Shown here one piece after another: positions 3,451 to 16,007 of a stretch of DNA of 36,757 bases; position 1 is the stretch's first letter; each line of letters begins with the position of its first letter. Below the pieces are notes generated by a model, which was given only the letters and a program-made list of their open reading frames with translations, did not search any database and was not told where the DNA came from. A program made the position numbers and the translations under genes. Location: NCBI GenBank assembly GCA_002869685.1, contig PKUE01000100.1, positions 1 through 36,757 of the forward strand, written 5' to 3'. This stretch comes from Desulfuromonas sp. GTDB taxonomy: Bacteria > Desulfobacterota > Desulfuromonadia > Desulfuromonadales > Desulfuromonadaceae.

Positions 3451-4292
3451 AATTCACCCCTAAACAGCTATCGGGAAACGTCAATGTGTCCCGAACCCAT
3501 CCGCTGGTCGAATTGTTCTGGCTACTTGCCGGCATCGTAATGCTGGGCGGGCTGTTTATTTTCGCCCTTGGCTTTACCACCGACTGGGCCGCCCGGAAAG
3601 CCCCCCTGTCTATCGAAAAATGGATTGGGCGTCAGACGCTGAAACAATTTCCCGGCGAAGACAACCCCGCCTTAAGTCAACGCTTGCAGGCGCTACTGAC
3701 GACGGCTTCCTCAGAAGAGCGTCTGCAGCGTTACCCGTTTCGTATCCTCGTGCTTGACCGCGACGACGTAAACGCGCTTGCCTTGCCCGGTGGTACAATT
3801 GTCATTTTTTCGGGTCTGCTGGATGAGATCACGTCGGAGAACGAGTTGATGATGGTGATCGGTCATGAACTGGGCCATTTTGCCCAGCGGGATCATTTGC
3901 GCGGTCTGGGGCGCGGGCTCGGAATTGCCATTGCGACAACGATGATTTTCGGCCAGGACAGCGGCTTCAGCGACCTGGTAGCCAAAGCGGTTCTGCCGAT
4001 CCAAGCTGGATATTCTCAGCAGCAGGAGCGCGCAGCTGACCGCTTTGCTCTCGATCTGTTAGCGCGCCATTATGGCCATTGCGGTGGCGCCACCGATTTC
4101 TTTGTACGCCATGCAACAACCAGCGGTCCCCAAATTGCCTACCTGCTGGCATCCCACCCTCACCCGCAGGCACGCATTGATGATTTAAACCGGATCATTG
4201 CCAGCAAACATTATGCGTTGTTGGCGCCCCAACCCCTCGGAGAAGACTTGCGCCACAGGCAGAGTGATCCGCCCGCTTCCCCCACGCACTAA
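3447..4292 (+). CDS. M48 family zinc metalloprotease, membrane-anchored
   Basis: A 281-residue peptidase of the M48 (Ste24/HtpX/BepA-like) group. The zinc motif HELGH lies at residues 140-144 (two His ligands, catalytic Glu141). The third ligand is Glu194 in the ERAAD motif at 194-198. One N-terminal transmembrane helix (about residues 22-46) precedes a folded domain that starts near residue 55. The DDVNALALPGG segment and the SHPHPQARI motif near the C-terminus are typical of the family. It is probably anchored in the inner membrane with the protease domain in the periplasm; this is inferred. It begins inside the stop codon of the YbjQ-like gene, so the three proteins are likely made together. 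It lacks the TPR domain of BepA and the multiple helices of HtpX. Confidence 0.9.
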   Translation: MKFTPKQLSGNVNVSRTHPLVELFWLLAGIVMLGGLFIFALGFTTDWAARKAPLSIEKWIGRQTLKQFPGEDNPALSQRLQALLTTASSEERLQRYPFRILVLDRDDVNALALPGGTIVIFSGLLDEITSENELMMVIGHELGHFAQRDHLRGLGRGLGIAIATTMIFGQDSGFSDLVAKAVLPIQAGYSQQQERAADRFALDLLARHYGHCGGATDFFVRHATTSGPQIAYLLASHPHPQARIDDLNRIIASKHYALLAPQPLGEDLRHRQSDPPASPTH

Positions 4293-4353
4293 CATCTAAA
4301 ACGGTGCATCTGCGTTACGCAACAGCATCTGCATTCTTCTGGACAAAACCTCT

Positions 4354-4381
4354 TTGAAAAAAAGTGGTTTCTGTTTATAGT
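4354..4381 (+). promoter_or_regulatory. Sigma70-type promoter of the TetR-family gene
   Basis: TTGAAA at 4354-4359, 16-nt spacer, TATAGT at 4376-4381. Transcription would start at about 4388, which coincides with the ATG of the regulator, suggesting a leaderless message. Confidence 0.55.
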
Positions 4382-4387
4382 GCCAAA

Positions 4388-5035
4388 ATGGATGTGAATC
4401 ATAATTCACCAAAAAAAAATCAGAACGCCCAGAGGCTGGCAACCGAGGTGCGGCGGGAGCAGATTGCTCTGGCGGCATTACACCTGATCGGCACAAAGGG
4501 GCTTGAAGGGATGAGTATTGCCGGGATCGCCCGAGAAATCGGCCTTGTTCCTTCGGCGATCTATCGTCACTTCAAGGGCAAAAATGAGATCCTCGATGCG
4601 GTCAATGATCTGATTCGTGACCGGCTTCTGGGGCTGGTGGCCAGCGTTCTCAAGGAAAAAAACGATCCCGTCGCGCAACTCCACACGCTGTTGCAACGTC
4701 ACGTGGCGCTGGTAAAAACCCACATCGGCATTCCTCGCTATGTCTTTTCCGTTGAAGGCAGCGGCGTTTCAAAAGACAACAACCAGCGCCTGTACGGGGC
4801 GGTTCAGGCCTATCTGGCCAAAGTGACACACATTATTCGCCAGGGTCAGGCTTCTGGGCACATCAATACCGAGATGGACGCCGCCACTCTGGCGTTTATG
4901 TTTTTGGGACTGCTGCAACCCGCTATTTTTCTTCACCACCTGAGTGGCGGGCTGTTCGACATCGAAGAGCAGACAGAGCGCGCCTGGACCATTTTCAGTT
5001 GCACGCTTACCCCACCCCCCTCGCCACTCCCTTAA
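4388..5035 (+). CDS. TetR/AcrR family transcriptional regulator
   Basis: A 215-residue repressor-type protein. The N-terminal helix-turn-helix (about residues 20-66) has the TetR signature, with IAGIAREIGLVPSAIYRHFK as the recognition region followed by GKNEIL. The C-terminal ligand domain is helical and unassigned. An in-frame GTG at 4364 would add eight residues, but it lies between the promoter elements, so ATG 4388 is preferred. No Shine-Dalgarno sequence precedes it, and the predicted transcript begins at or next to the ATG. A near-perfect copy of the palindrome found before the downstream cytochrome gene overlaps codons 3-8. This supports autorepression and control of the cytochrome by this protein. 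A run of nine A residues (4411-4419) sits in the early coding sequence. The ligand cannot be read from sequence. Confidence 0.9.
   Translation: MDVNHNSPKKNQNAQRLATEVRREQIALAALHLIGTKGLEGMSIAGIAREIGLVPSAIYRHFKGKNEILDAVNDLIRDRLLGLVASVLKEKNDPVAQLHTLLQRHVALVKTHIGIPRYVFSVEGSGVSKDNNQRLYGAVQAYLAKVTHIIRQGQASGHINTEMDAATLAFMFLGLLQPAIFLHHLSGGLFDIEEQTERAWTIFSCTLTPPPSPLP
4394..4409. promoter_or_regulatory. Palindromic operator O1 inside start of the TetR gene
   Basis: GTGAATCATAATTCAC, a 16-bp inverted repeat with a single imperfect pair at the centre. It differs by one base from the perfect palindrome at 5095-5110. It lies just after the predicted transcription start, where a bound repressor would block its own promoter. 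Confidence 0.7.
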
Positions 5036-5094
5036 TCCCAATCTCGCGAGTTGAATGGTCAAGATGAACAGTAGAGATTTTTTACATTCCCAAA

Positions 5095-5110
5095 GTGAAT
5101 CATGATTCAC
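5095..5110. promoter_or_regulatory. Palindromic operator O2 before the octaheme cytochrome gene
   Basis: GTGAATCATGATTCAC, a perfect 16-bp palindrome 87 bases before the cytochrome ATG. Its near-duplicate lies at the start of the neighbouring TetR gene, so both are best read as sites for that regulator. I see no convincing -35/-10 pair next to it; TTTACA at 5081-5086 is a possible weak -35. Confidence 0.75.
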
Positions 5111-5197
5111 AAAGAATTCTAGCCCAAGGGGCGGGAGCACACACCCCGAACAGGAAATGTTCGGGGAATTAATCACCAGAACCACAAGGAGGCAAAG

Positions 5198-6484
5198 ATG
5201 AAAAGAACGTTTGCAACAGGACTGGCCATGTTATGCAGTGCCCTGTTCCTGACAGGAACGGCTCTGGCAGGAAACAGCTGCATTGACTGCCACAGTAGCG
5301 TTTCCCCCGGTCAGGTCAAAGACTGGCAGGCAAGCATGCATGCAGAGGCGGGGGTCACCTGCGATCTGTGCCACGGCGACGCCCACACCAACGCATCAGA
5401 TAGTCAGAAGGCCCTGCTGCCGGATGAAAAAGTTTGTGCCGAATGTCACGAAGAGCAGTTCACATCGTTCAGCCACGGTAAGCATAATTACGGCTGGACC
5501 GTTCTTAACGCGATTCCCGCAACACATTTTGCCCCGGATGAGTTAATTGAGGGCGGGCGAGGCTGCGGCGGCTGTCACAATATGGGCATCAAAACAGACG
5601 CGCAAAAAGCGGATCAGCTGGCAAAAGGCTACCGTTATCAGACCAACTCATGTGACGAATGCCATACCCGTCACAGTTTCTCAAAAAAAGAAGCCAACAA
5701 CCCCAAGGCCTGCCAGCAATGCCATATGGGCTACGACCATCCCCAGTGGGAAATGTGGTCCAGTTCCAAGCATGGGGCACGCTACTTCGCCAAGAAAGAT
5801 GGCGATCTTCCCGACGGTGCAGCGGCACCGACCTGCCAAACCTGTCATCTGCCAGATGGCACCCATGAAAATCACACGGCCTGGGGCTTTCTGGGCGTGC
5901 GTCTACCATTGCCGGAAGATCCGCAGGCTGCGGCTGACCGGGTAACGATTCTCAAAGCACTGGGAGTACTCCATCCCGACACCGGCGAGCCAACAGCCAT
6001 TCTGGATGCGGTTAAAGCGGTCGATATGGCCCGCCTGGATCAGGCTTCATGGGAAAAAGAGCGCAACAAGATGCTTGATACCTGTCGTCAGTGTCACTCT
6101 TACACCTACGCAAAAGAGCAGCTGGATATGGGGGACGCGATCCTGACAAAAGCGGACCGGCTGATGGCAGAAGCCATTGAAACGGTAGCGGGTCTATACC
6201 GCGATGGCATAATCAAAAAACCGGCAGGTTACCCGTTTAACTATCCGTTTATTCTGGCGCTGATGCACACCAACGGTGCGAACTGGGATGAGAATCTGGA
6301 CGAATTGTCCTACATTGATCAGGTTCTTCTACAGATGTACTTCAAACACCGGATGCGGGCTTACCAAGCCTTCTTCCATGTCAACCCGGACTATGCCTAC
6401 TGGTATGGTTGGAACATGATGACAGAAGATCTGGGGGAAATTAAGCATCTCGCCAAAGCCATGCGCGCCGATCACGAGAACTAG
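5198..6484 (+). CDS. Octaheme c-type cytochrome, hydroxylamine oxidoreductase (HAO)-like
   Basis: A 428-residue secreted cytochrome with a signal peptide (cleavage near ALA-GN, residue 24). It has eight CXXCH motifs, starting at residues 28, 55, 80, 123, 152, 172, 213 and 296. The segment after the sixth heme, MGYDHPQWEMWSSSKHG, is a hallmark of the HAO/octaheme family, and the helical C-terminus with HVNPDYAYWYGW also fits. Such proteins oxidise hydroxylamine or hydrazine, or in anaerobes reduce nitrite or hydroxylamine to ammonium. I cannot tell from sequence whether the cross-linking tyrosine of true HAO is present, so direction and substrate are open. In this genomic setting a reductive or detoxifying role is the more likely inference. 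AAGGAGGCAAAG precedes the ATG. It has no membrane anchor and no quinol-oxidising partner beside it. A TetR gene and shared operators lie upstream. Confidence 0.9.
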   Translation: MKRTFATGLAMLCSALFLTGTALAGNSCIDCHSSVSPGQVKDWQASMHAEAGVTCDLCHGDAHTNASDSQKALLPDEKVCAECHEEQFTSFSHGKHNYGWTVLNAIPATHFAPDELIEGGRGCGGCHNMGIKTDAQKADQLAKGYRYQTNSCDECHTRHSFSKKEANNPKACQQCHMGYDHPQWEMWSSSKHGARYFAKKDGDLPDGAAAPTCQTCHLPDGTHENHTAWGFLGVRLPLPEDPQAAADRVTILKALGVLHPDTGEPTAILDAVKAVDMARLDQASWEKERNKMLDTCRQCHSYTYAKEQLDMGDAILTKADRLMAEAIETVAGLYRDGIIKKPAGYPFNYPFILALMHTNGANWDENLDELSYIDQVLLQMYFKHRMRAYQAFFHVNPDYAYWYGWNMMTEDLGEIKHLAKAMRADHEN

Positions 6485-6495
6485 GCGTATCAACA

Positions 6496-6526
6496 GTCAG
6501 GCCACTCTTTTATGGAGTGGCCTGAC
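6496..6526. terminator. Hairpin between convergent genes, likely terminator
   Basis: A perfect 12-bp stem (GTCAGGCCACTC / GAGTGGCCTGAC) with a 7-nt loop, 12 bases after the cytochrome stop and just beyond the end of the convergent small gene. There is no clear U-tract on either side, so it may be Rho-assisted or bidirectional. Confidence 0.6.
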
Positions 6527-6534
6527 ATCATCTA

Positions 6535-6756
6535 TCAAGCATTATCGCGTTCACGATGCATCTGGAAGCGTAACTCCCGCATCGCCGCAAAAATGGCATC
6601 CTGCCACTCCTCACCGCTGATCTGCCATTGTTCACACGCGGTGTAGTCAATGCCGTCTTTCGAAGAGTTGACCAGCTCAAAAAACGTATAGTTCGCCACA
6701 CAATGCTGTGCAAAATCGGCCACTCTGCCACGTAAGTCTGAAAGATATCGAACCAT
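6535..6756 (-). CDS. Small conserved-looking protein of unknown function
   Basis: A 73-residue protein I do not recognise. A longer in-frame start at 6807 exists, but ATG 6756 is preceded by a strong AGGAGGG 5 nt upstream, so the shorter form is chosen. It is soluble and probably helical, with several aromatic residues (NYTFFEL, QWQI, EEWQDAIFAAM) and two cysteines (residues 20 and 42), and no signal peptide. A plausible promoter lies at 6791-6819. It converges on the octaheme cytochrome gene and ends at the shared hairpin. It sits downstream of the tRNA-Ala terminator and so is transcribed separately. Function unknown; the ribosome site and promoter are the main evidence that it is real. Confidence 0.6.
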   Translation of the reverse strand: MVRYLSDLRGRVADFAQHCVANYTFFELVNSSKDGIDYTACEQWQISGEEWQDAIFAAMRELRFQMHRERDNA

Positions 6757-6790
6757 GACGCCCTCCTGATTGTCGCGTTTCAGGCTGGGG

Positions 6791-6819
6791 AACCTACATC
6801 TTGGCACGGATCAATGCAA
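6791..6819 (-). promoter_or_regulatory. Putative promoter of the small unknown gene
   Basis: On the minus strand: TTGCAT (6819-6814), 17-nt spacer, TAGGTT (6796-6791). It is about 35 bases before the preferred ATG of the 73-residue protein. Confidence 0.4.
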
Positions 6820-6860
6820 CCATTCTAATATTAAAACAGCAGAAAACTGACAGCAGGAAC

Positions 6861-6897
6861 AAAAAAAAGGGTTCGCTGATATTCAGCAAACCCTTTG
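6861..6897 (-). terminator. Rho-independent terminator after tRNA-Ala
   Basis: On the minus strand a stem AAGGGTTTGCTGA / TCAGCGAACCCTT with an ATA loop (one G-U pair) runs directly into eight Ts (complement of 6861-6868). It lies just past the tRNA 3' end. Confidence 0.85.
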
Positions 6898-6905
6898 ATT
6901 TTTTA

Positions 6906-6981
<76 letters not shown>

Positions 6982-6995
6982 ATAAGACGAAGGCG

Positions 6996-7025
6996 TTTAT
7001 ATCAAAGGGGGCGTGAGGCTGTCAA
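6996..7025 (-). promoter_or_regulatory. Promoter of tRNA-Ala
   Basis: On the minus strand: perfect TTGACA (7025-7020), 18-nt spacer, TATAAA (7001-6996), 14 bases before the mature tRNA 5' end. Confidence 0.8.
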
Positions 7026-7139
7026 CGCATTTCTGCATGGAACGCATAAAGTTTTAATTTTTTTCGAACATTCGCCAGAGCAATCTCACCGCAAAGAGAA
7101 AACAGCCCACAATTTCATCAAGTTACAGAGGAACCACAT

Positions 7140-14147: not shown

Positions 14148-16007
14148 ATGGCCCTGAACAGTCCCAAACCCGATGACATCCGGCGCAAACGGCGCTTTGA
14201 ACTGCTCATGCTGGCGGCAATCTTCTTTTTTACCCTGCTAGCCATGCGCCTGTGGTATCTGCAGATCATCAGCGGCGAACGCTACCAGATCCTGTCGCAG
14301 AAGAACCGCACCCGCTATATTCCGATCGCGGCACCGCGCGGCCCGATCTATGACCGTTCCGGCCTGCTGCTGGTGGACAACCGCCCGTCCTTTACGGTTT
14401 CCGTGCTGCGCCAGGAGGTCACCGACAAGGAACAGCTGCTCAAAGACCTGGGAACCTACCTGCACAGTGACTGGCAAGAACTGGCCGCCGACTGGGACAA
14501 ACGCCGCTACTATCCACGTTACCGCCCGATCCCGTTGAAAAGCGATATCGACCGCGACACCTTGGAACAACTGGCGGAGCACTCGGTAGACTTGCCCGGC
14601 ATGCTGATCGAAGTTCAACCCATCCGCGCCTATCCCTACCGCGAAGTTGCCGCCCATCTGTTCGGCCACATTGGCGCCATCACGGAAAAAGAGCTCAACA
14701 GTCGTGAATTTGTCGGCTATCGTGCCGGGGAATTTATTGGTAAAAGCGGGCTGGAAAAGCATCTCGAAGCCTATCTGAAAGGCCAGGCCGGAGAGAAACT
14801 GCTTGAGGTGGACGTCAAAGGCAAGGAATTACGTCAATTACAGGTTCAGGAACCGTTGCCGGGCAAGAGTGTCTATCTGACACTGGACCGTGATCTGCAA
14901 CTGGCCACAGAGCAGGCCTTTGACGAGCAAGCTGGCGCCGCCGTGGTTCTTGACGTCAACAACGGCGATATTCTCGCCATGGTCAGCCGGCCGGCTTTCG
15001 ATCCGGCGCTGTTCGCCCGCGGCATCAGCGCCGAAGAGTGGCAGGCTCTGGTGGAAAATCCCGACCATCCACTGCAGGCTAAAGCGATCAGCGGGCAGTA
15101 CCCGCCCGGCTCAACCTATAAAATGGTCACGGCTCTGGCAGCGTTACGCGCCGGTGTGGTCACCCCCGACGAGTTGATCGACTGTGAGGGGCGCACCACC
15201 GTCGGCAACCGTGACTTCCGCTGCTGGAAAAAAACCGGTCACGGCCCCACTAATCTGAAAAAAGCGCTGCGGGAAAGTTGCGATGTGTGGTTCTACGAGA
15301 TCTCGCTGCGTCTGGGAATCGATCGCATGTCGGCCATGGCCCGTGAACTTGGGCTGGGGCGCGACTTCAACCTGCCGCTGGATAACGAACGTTCCGGGCT
15401 GATTCCTGACAAAGAGTGGAAACGGCGCCGTTTCAATGCCTCGTGGTACAAAGGGGAGACCGTCATTGCCGCCATCGGCCAGGGATATGTGCTGGCCACG
15501 CCACTGCAGTTGGCCGTAATGACCGCCACGATTGCCAACGGCGGCACCCTGTACCAGCCGCAACTGATCAAGCGGATTGCCGATTACACCGGACGCCCGC
15601 TGCAGGAAACCCAGCCAGTGGTACTGCATCAGGCTGACATCTCTGCCAAGAACCTGAAATCAGTAAAAAACGGCATGGTTGAGGTTATCAACCATGTTGC
15701 CGGTACCGGCCAATCGAGTAAACTGGCGGAAATCACCGTCGCGGGCAAAACCGGCACCGCCCAGGTAGTCAAGCTGAAGGAAGACCCCGAAGATGGCGAG
15801 AAACCGAGTCCTGACGAGATTGCCTACCGCCTGCGCGACCATGCGTTGTTTGTCGCATATGCTCCGGCGGAGAATCCGCAGATCGCCATTGCCGTCATCG
15901 TCGAGCACGGTCAACACGGCGGCAGTGCTGCCGGTCCAATCGCCCGGGAAATCTTTGAGCATTACTTCAATATCCAGCCCGCCTCCCCCGAGCAGCCGGA
16001 AGAGTAA
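14148..16007 (+). CDS. mrdA: Penicillin-binding protein 2 (elongation transpeptidase)
   Basis: A 619-residue class B penicillin-binding protein that cross-links peptidoglycan during elongation in a complex with RodA. An N-terminal membrane helix (about residues 22-41) is followed by the dimerisation/pedestal domain with APRGPIYDRSG. The transpeptidase domain has all three motifs: STYK with nucleophile Ser322, SCD at Ser377 (RESCDVWFYE), and KTG at Lys534 (GKTGTAQV). CWKKTGHG and IGQGYVLATPLQLA are further family marks. It lies 4 nt after mreD and 11 nt before rodA. Nothing is missing. Confidence 0.97.
   Translation: MALNSPKPDDIRRKRRFELLMLAAIFFFTLLAMRLWYLQIISGERYQILSQKNRTRYIPIAAPRGPIYDRSGLLLVDNRPSFTVSVLRQEVTDKEQLLKDLGTYLHSDWQELAADWDKRRYYPRYRPIPLKSDIDRDTLEQLAEHSVDLPGMLIEVQPIRAYPYREVAAHLFGHIGAITEKELNSREFVGYRAGEFIGKSGLEKHLEAYLKGQAGEKLLEVDVKGKELRQLQVQEPLPGKSVYLTLDRDLQLATEQAFDEQAGAAVVLDVNNGDILAMVSRPAFDPALFARGISAEEWQALVENPDHPLQAKAISGQYPPGSTYKMVTALAALRAGVVTPDELIDCEGRTTVGNRDFRCWKKTGHGPTNLKKALRESCDVWFYEISLRLGIDRMSAMARELGLGRDFNLPLDNERSGLIPDKEWKRRRFNASWYKGETVIAAIGQGYVLATPLQLAVMTATIANGGTLYQPQLIKRIADYTGRPLQETQPVVLHQADISAKNLKSVKNGMVEVINHVAGTGQSSKLAEITVAGKTGTAQVVKLKEDPEDGEKPSPDEIAYRLRDHALFVAYAPAENPQIAIAVIVEHGQHGGSAAGPIAREIFEHYFNIQPASPEQPEE

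Follow-up and report, generated by a model that had tools for sequence, protein, structure and literature searches.

A probable autoregulated TetR switch with two matched operators at an octaheme cytochrome gene of Desulfuromonas

AcrR, TtgR and MtrR are autoregulated TetR-family regulators of local efflux genes, and the TetR described here resembles them in its fold, in its helix-turn-helix (HTH) and in having sites both at its own gene and at the next-door target; many of its relatives adjoin efflux genes, as these three regulators do. It differs from them in the target, which here is an octaheme cytochrome, and in the predicted operator, GTGAAT-N4-ATTCAC, and its scores lie far under the cut-offs of the NCBIfam models for AcrR (31.9 of 271) and MtrR (34.8 of 280). 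FadR (YsiA) of Bacillus, another member of the TetR family, also has a TGAAT half-site in its operator. This protein aligns with our TetR over most of its length, with a low score of 47.3 bits against a cut-off of 200 for the Bacillus-type FadR model NF053878, and no fatty-acid gene was noticed beside the tetR studied here. As for the enzymes, little is known, to our knowledge, about how octaheme HAO-like proteins are regulated in bacteria other than nitrifiers and anammox organisms. Regulators with similar targets, namely hcp, RIC (dnrN), norB and nitrite reductase, are HcpR, DNR, NnrR, NsrR and NorR, which, according to the part of PMC1274295 consulted, belong to other protein families than the TetR considered here. 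In the same part of that paper, the motifs of HcpR, DNR, NnrR and NorR, for example TTGAC-N4-GTCAA and TTGAT-N4-ATCAA, differ from our operator, and no TetR is named among the NO and nitrite regulators. Judged from search listings, the open-licence PMC literature yielded neither a TetR regulator of an octaheme cytochrome nor a TetR regulator of NO stress, and a search with the operator letters returned nothing relevant among the matches listed, which were apparently primer letters.

The locus lies in a window of 36,757 nucleotides, the whole stretch of DNA analysed here, from contig PKUE01000100.1 of a Desulfuromonas draft assembly (GCA_002869685.1). The features on which the following account is built are:

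4354..4381, plus strand: predicted sigma-70-type promoter of tetR, TTGAAA-16 nt-TATAGT, 10/12 consensus positions
4388..5035, plus strand: tetR, 215 aa, with its ATG 6 nt after the -10, supported by PF00440 and by the geometry of orthologues
4394..4409, no strand: predicted operator O1, GTGAATCATAATTCAC, in codons 3-8 of tetR, conserved in relatives
5078..5088, plus strand: T-rich stretch just 5' of O2; relatives are similar, with T runs upstream of the site (by eye)
5095..5110, no strand: predicted operator O2, GTGAATCATGATTCAC, upstream of the cytochrome gene, conserved in relatives
5198..6484, plus strand: octaheme c-type cytochrome of the HAO superfamily, 428 aa, with eight CXXCH motifs, PF13447 and a signal peptide recognised by eye

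O2 is a perfect 16-bp palindrome placed 87 nt 5' of the cytochrome ATG, and O1, at a spacing of 701 bp, differs from it by one change, exactly as an earlier note on this DNA had described the two elements. When the 16-mer was searched at up to 3 mismatches, O1 and O2 were its sole matches in the window, with 0.22 matches expected per shuffle and two matches reached in 2 of 100 shuffles. A perfect 16-bp palindrome accompanied, less than 1 kb apart, by a copy with at most one change was produced by none of 200 first-order Markov simulations of the window; since the pair is also conserved in relatives, a chance repeat was rejected, and the earlier claim that two such palindromes are very unlikely by chance holds. 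Perfect 16-bp palindromes by themselves are no rarity (0.66 per simulated window on average), which leaves some room for the idea that the two elements are chance structures, RNA hairpins or the sites of another factor, such as CRP/FNR, and that the adjacent TetR is unrelated to them. The other perfect 16-bp palindrome of the window, GAAACGGCGCCGTTTC at 15419-15434, lies within a long ORF (14148-16007) and has half-sites unlike those of the operators. In the whole draft genome (3,116,757 bases in 186 contigs, 94.76% complete), O1 and O2 are the only matches to the 16-mer at up to 2 mismatches, with 5 further ones at 3 mismatches, and also the only exact occurrences of GTGAAT-N4-ATTCAC with a free centre; this motif occurs with one change at three sites, all within unrelated ORFs and away from gene starts, as compared to one site for the reversed control.

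The predicted tetR promoter consists of a -35-like hexamer at 4354-4359 and a -10-like hexamer at 4376-4381, and by itself it is not significant (2 sites found against 1.7 expected in shuffles). In the five orthologous gene pairs discussed below, the best hexamer pair agrees with the consensus at 8-10 of 12 positions, the weakest being that of G071, 5-7 nt separate the end of the -10 from the ATG, and an operator no more than one change away from the motif begins 6 nt after the A of the tetR ATG. A longer tetR reading frame starts at GTG 4364, within the predicted promoter. O1 begins at the third tetR codon, directly after this promoter, and a message starting there has no space for a Shine-Dalgarno sequence, so that the tetR message is probably leaderless, with its start near the ATG at 4388. 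Ahead of the cytochrome ATG, instead, AAGGAGG is found at 5186-5192. No promoter-like hexamer pair was found near the cytochrome gene and O2, and a sigma-54 promoter, sought by eye, was not conserved. The 5'-UTR of the cytochrome gene contains a strong hairpin at 5144-5166, and the 100 nt before the start fold with a z of -3.1 by simple mononucleotide shuffles; a conserved hairpin is not claimed, as z among the orthologues ranges from +1.2 to -6.4, a spread due in part to the folding of the operator itself. A search of Rfam for annotated RNA elements between the genes, over positions 4200-7100, gave nothing but the tRNA.

The identities that the earlier note had assigned to the two genes were confirmed by PF00440 in the regulator and by the eight CXXCH motifs and PF13447 in the cytochrome. 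The N-terminal HTH of TetR scores 44.4 bits with PF00440 (gathering score 24), and the protein also matches three TetR C-terminal families above their cut-offs; among the NCBIfam models listed at E <= 0.001, none reached its cut-off. The AlphaFold2 model (mean pLDDT 91.2) is all-helical and has ten helices, as is typical of TetR proteins, which consist of about 9-10 helices and carry their ligand domain at the C-terminus. Residues 1-10, six of which are encoded by O1, are poorly predicted (mean pLDDT 54). In an alignment of 49 TetR members, efflux-linked and cytochrome-linked ones mixed, 46 to 49 sequences share the residues H105, Y142, Q154, F172, Q177 and W200. Moreover, 18 of the 49 aligned sequences, whose N-termini are partly trimmed, have no cysteine, and this makes a sensor based on a conserved cysteine or on an Fe-S cluster unlikely.

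As for the cytochrome, its PF13447 score is 90.9 bits against a threshold of 21.9, and this domain and the eight CXXCH motifs are common to HAO and the reductive octaheme HAO family, from which the protein differs in being only 428 aa long and of low overall similarity. Its best PDB relatives by sequence are the HAO-like 6t5e, 6h5l and 4n4j together with the HAO 4fas; with the NCBIfam model of hydrazine dehydrogenase, NF052343, it scored 77.8 bits, against a cut-off of 900. A weak local alignment (21.7 bits) places Y401 opposite position 467 of 4fas, which we take to be the tyrosine cross-linked to the catalytic heme; Y399 and Y403 are adjacent, and all three tyrosines are invariant in 8/8 aligned orthologues. 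The part of PMC12758564 consulted reports a Tyr at the key site of oxidative HAOs and a His in reductive ones, with indications of a His-to-Tyr transition within the Desulfobacterota. The structure model of the cytochrome, built from three sequences, reached a pLDDT of 36.6 and was unusable. Following the cytochrome gene, on the minus strand, there is an ORF of 90 aa (6535-6807) for which neither Pfam nor NCBIfam gave a match at E <= 0.001.

At E <= 1e-40, 25 of the 136 genomes of the order contain cytochrome orthologues, at 29 loci in all, and a tetR relative adjoins seven of these loci, in the window itself, in G027 (two contigs, one of which is cut through tetR), G033, G034, G071 and G074. 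Since G027 and G033 are near-identical, the seven loci amount to five distinct pairs and, as G034 is also close to them, to four lineages. The tetR-linked cytochrome gene of G071 carries one in-frame TGA, either a true break or a sequencing error. The palindrome was looked for at these orthologous gene pairs, and both sites, each within one change of GTGAAT-N4-ATTCAC, are present at 5/5 of them; conservation in relatives thus bears out what the earlier note proposed, namely the pairing of the regulator with its operators, a putative site of autoregulation and the connection with the octaheme cytochrome. At the 22 cytochrome loci with no adjacent tetR, for which the upstream DNA ranged from 97 to 1,561 bases (the shortest at L018 and L031), the best upstream match has 3-5 changes in every case, like the reversed control. 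The motif within two changes is therefore missing before all 22 tetR-less orthologues, a result that speaks against an unrelated factor or chance as the source of the palindromes.

To extend the comparison beyond the order, TetR relatives were collected from two sources. The class search, at E <= 1e-35, found them in 45 of 277 genomes, with loci given for 30 matches, and a contig scan gave 79 loci; the 89 loci scored comprise 63 of the latter (L085-L147) and 26 of the former 30, after leaving out the 16 weakest contig-scan loci (L148-L163) and four loci common to both searches, and near-copies, such as L038/L039, were kept among them. At the start of tetR, the site is exact at 36 loci and has one change at 34, two at 10 and more at 9, which makes 70/89 with at most one change. 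For the second site, at the end of the gene, the corresponding numbers are 22, 21, 12 and 34 (43/89 with at most one change), and four control patterns occurred, at up to two changes, at 0/89 loci in both places. Among the sites chosen at up to two changes, the half-sites are nearly fixed and the 4-base centre varies freely. The exact motif was found in 14 of 16 genomes picked for holding the TetR, and the reversed control in none; class-wide, an exact site occurs in 41/277 genomes versus 5/277 for the reversed control. Within the order, 5 of the 7 genomes with a close TetR contain the exact motif versus 9 of the 129 others (Fisher p 1e-4), all 10 exact sites of those five genomes being within 11 kb of tetR; the close TetRs of G027 and G124 occur in genomes with no exact motif. 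As read from the genomes compared, GTGAAT-N4-ATTCAC is the mark of this TetR subfamily. The nine order genomes that hold an exact motif somewhere and have no close TetR agree with another factor or with chance, but the motif tracks the TetR subfamily across several phyla, and nearly fixed half-sites around a free centre are not what this explanation would lead one to expect; we regard it as very improbable. FNR/CRP sites in particular were rejected, because they have different half-sites and the motif goes with the TetR. The assignment of this regulator to these two operators and to this target, predicted by comparing genomes, appears instead nearly certain. Among the subfamily loci, three belong to anammox genera (L100, L108 and L111, from Loosdrechtia, Jettenia and Brocadia), which have the TetR and both sites, one start site with one change; the genes called there as partners encode a ClC channel, a HlyD-type protein and, at a distance of 701 bp, a hemerythrin.

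The neighbourhoods of the subfamily bear on what the TetR may sense. In G034, G071 and G074 a perfect site lies between hcp and an RND efflux operon near tetR, and in G033 and G034 a perfect operator is found about 50 bp before the gene of a PilJ-domain methyl-accepting chemotaxis protein (L207:2937 and L205:4155); the RND protein and the chemoreceptor of G034 and the hcp product of G074 were scanned with Pfam, and the names of their counterparts and of the HlyD-type adaptor come from inspection by eye. On the 3' side of the cytochrome, G034 carries a flavodiiron gene (ODP), a protoglobin-PsiE gene, a PAS-like gene, NapC/NrfH and a second octaheme gene, and the same gene order was seen by eye in G033 and G027. 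The window genome contains two hcp genes, part of an NrfA and a distant flavodiiron gene (30%), and the TetR motif (up to two changes) was not found on the stretches fetched around both hcp genes. The self-contained sensor-enzyme unit envisaged by the earlier note may hold in this draft genome, in which the only two promoter-placed sites are O1 and O2, but it is not a general description, given the sites of the relatives before the RND operon beside hcp and before the chemoreceptor gene, and the number of relatives that adjoin efflux genes.

A downstream gene could be called at 78 of the 89 loci and none at 11, and the 78 partners are HlyD-type (23), OEP (17), MMPL (6), octaheme (6), RIC (4), Hcp (2), qNOR (2), hemerythrin (2) and other (16). 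These tallies are rough, because the mechanical ORF script misses genes in GC-rich contigs; the partners were grouped by BLAST, and each group takes its name from one member, or a few, scanned with Pfam. L121 is one of the 11 loci with no called partner, though tblastn finds its NapC/NrfH and octaheme genes, and L047 is counted under RIC, the gene called there being hcp and RIC having been seen separately. An efflux gene (HlyD, OEP or MMPL) thus follows tetR at 46/78 called loci, so that the inducer may be a general toxicant, and this is the main argument against a nitrosative signal. The TetR would then be of the efflux type and sense a hydrophobic or antibiotic-like toxicant, the cytochrome being an extra detoxification gene in its regulon and the N-oxides not being the signal. 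The perfect site before the RND operon of three relatives and the six residues conserved across the mixed alignment, which suggest one ligand class, fit this explanation. On the other hand, hcp, RIC, qNOR, flavodiiron and two kinds of octaheme genes recur beside the sites, which is hard to reconcile with an unrelated xenobiotic, and the window genome has kept the tetR-cytochrome pair with no close orthologue of the RND pump (best 28%). We consider an efflux-type sensor a real possibility, though not the probable one.

The evidence from the individual nitrogen-related loci is uneven. The qNOR-linked L122 (one change) and L129 (exact) and the Hcp-linked L092 (one change) have the start site only, the RIC-linked L095 has two changes at both sites, and L093 has a perfect site between a flavodiiron gene and another ORF. 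The motif is missing at the Geobacterales TetR-RIC-Hcp loci L045, L047 and L066, which belong to a related TetR clade, and at the Hcp-linked L143; as these make up most of the RIC loci (3 of 4) and half of the Hcp loci (1 of 2), the support from the two groups is weak. At L045 a different near-palindrome, AAGTGAGTATTCACTT, is present 54 bp upstream of the match. Moreover, hcp occurs in 5 of 61 flanks (the 63 contig-scan loci minus two octaheme-linked ones) versus 0.32 expected on the assumption of 2 hcp copies per 4 Mb.

A second type of octaheme gene is also found with this TetR. In a Desulfobacteraceae MAG (L121:5925-8608), an exact site, tetR, NapC/NrfH and an octaheme gene follow in a row. 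Octaheme genes of this type occur in 68 of 395 genomes of the phylum at E <= 1e-100; 30 loci were fetched, and a tetR relative is upstream in four (L222, L228, L229 and L232), the other 26 genes having none in their 1.5-kb flank. Longer stretches of those four, from other Desulfobacterota (L254-L257), present tetR, then NapC/NrfH, then the octaheme gene, and their best site, at the tetR start or ahead of it, is exact in one and has one change in three. At L252 and L253 a one-change site precedes NapC/NrfH with no adjacent tetR, and L253 has another site before a ferredoxin-flavodiiron-hemerythrin group (names from tblastn and by eye); at L258 both tetR and the site are missing. Modules of NapC and HAO are otherwise known, and the reverse-HURM of Nautilia (PMC3701875) is one with an HAO; NapC is reportedly part of it. 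The second type, a NapC/NrfH-octaheme operon, here preceded by tetR, resembles such modules, from which the window cytochrome differs in having no adjacent NapC/NrfH gene. A single origin of the TetR-octaheme link was considered and not retained: each octaheme type has its TetRs in a well supported clade of its own, and the two clades lie apart in the tree, yet one joint clade is not rejected (p-AU 0.398).

Some of the cytochrome orthologues with no tetR have a different element upstream. TTGAT-N4-ATCAA, which the part of PMC1274295 consulted gives as the FNR/DNR box (the HcpR box being TTGAC-N4-GTCAA in Geobacter and Desulfuromonas), is exact at 4 of the 22 tetR-less loci and has one change at 2 more, and within one change it is found at 0/7 tetR-linked loci. 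One sequence of this kind, TTGATCTAGATCAA, is shared by the tetR-less cytochrome loci L009 and L019 and occurs also 73 bp before one hcp gene of the window genome (L210:3247-3260, G000:C150). On a cytochrome tree of 27 rows, one change accounts for the TetR label, carried by 6 rows, and the FNR label, carried by 5, a pattern recovered in 82% of the bootstrap trees, the branch support being only 79/48. This suggests that relatives differ in what controls the cytochrome, some using an FNR/DNR-type box and others the TetR.

In the mechanism that we propose, in the absence of inducer a TetR dimer would occupy O1, which follows its own -10 and covers the first codons, and O2, keeping both genes low; an inducer would bind the C-terminal helical domain and release the TetR, and the periplasmic octaheme cytochrome would then be made. 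TetR regulators are mostly repressors. From this knowledge of the family, repression is quite likely here, and release by a ligand would be expected. The TetR might instead activate the cytochrome gene: as no promoter-like pair was found there, O2 could occupy an upstream activating position, but O1, directly after the -10 and in the first codons, is in a repressing position, which, together with the habit of the family, makes activation improbable.

Taken as a whole, an autoregulated TetR repressor with two operators, an octaheme cytochrome as its target and an inducer linked to nitrosative stress is the probable reading of the locus. The nitrosative signal is deduced from the neighbouring genes and from the box shared with hcp, and we give an even chance to an inducer that reports such stress, be it NO, nitrite, hydroxylamine or a product; from the same neighbourhoods we infer that the cytochrome would convert a nitrogen compound of this kind. 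The neighbouring genes indicate a kind of stress rather than one particular molecule, and the inducer may be the substrate of the enzyme, as the earlier note surmised. It is a tentative and rather doubtful step further to see in the subfamily an undescribed class of nitrosative-stress sensors which reads GTGAAT-N4-ATTCAC, has no conserved cysteines and controls efflux pumps and N-oxide enzymes, two octaheme HAO-like kinds included, across Desulfobacterota, Planctomycetota (with the anammox genera), Acidobacteriota, Verrucomicrobiota and Negativicutes. One may even speculate that NO or hydroxylamine itself is the signal of the subfamily, perhaps perceived through a cofactor at the conserved H105.

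In many bacteria, relatives of this switch that have the same DNA sites adjoin detoxification genes, a hint of a little-known alarm raised by toxic compounds, perhaps by toxic nitrogen compounds. With a concrete 16-bp operator, its regulator and a list of candidate targets across phyla at hand, the inducer, and through it perhaps the natural substrate of the enzyme, becomes directly testable.
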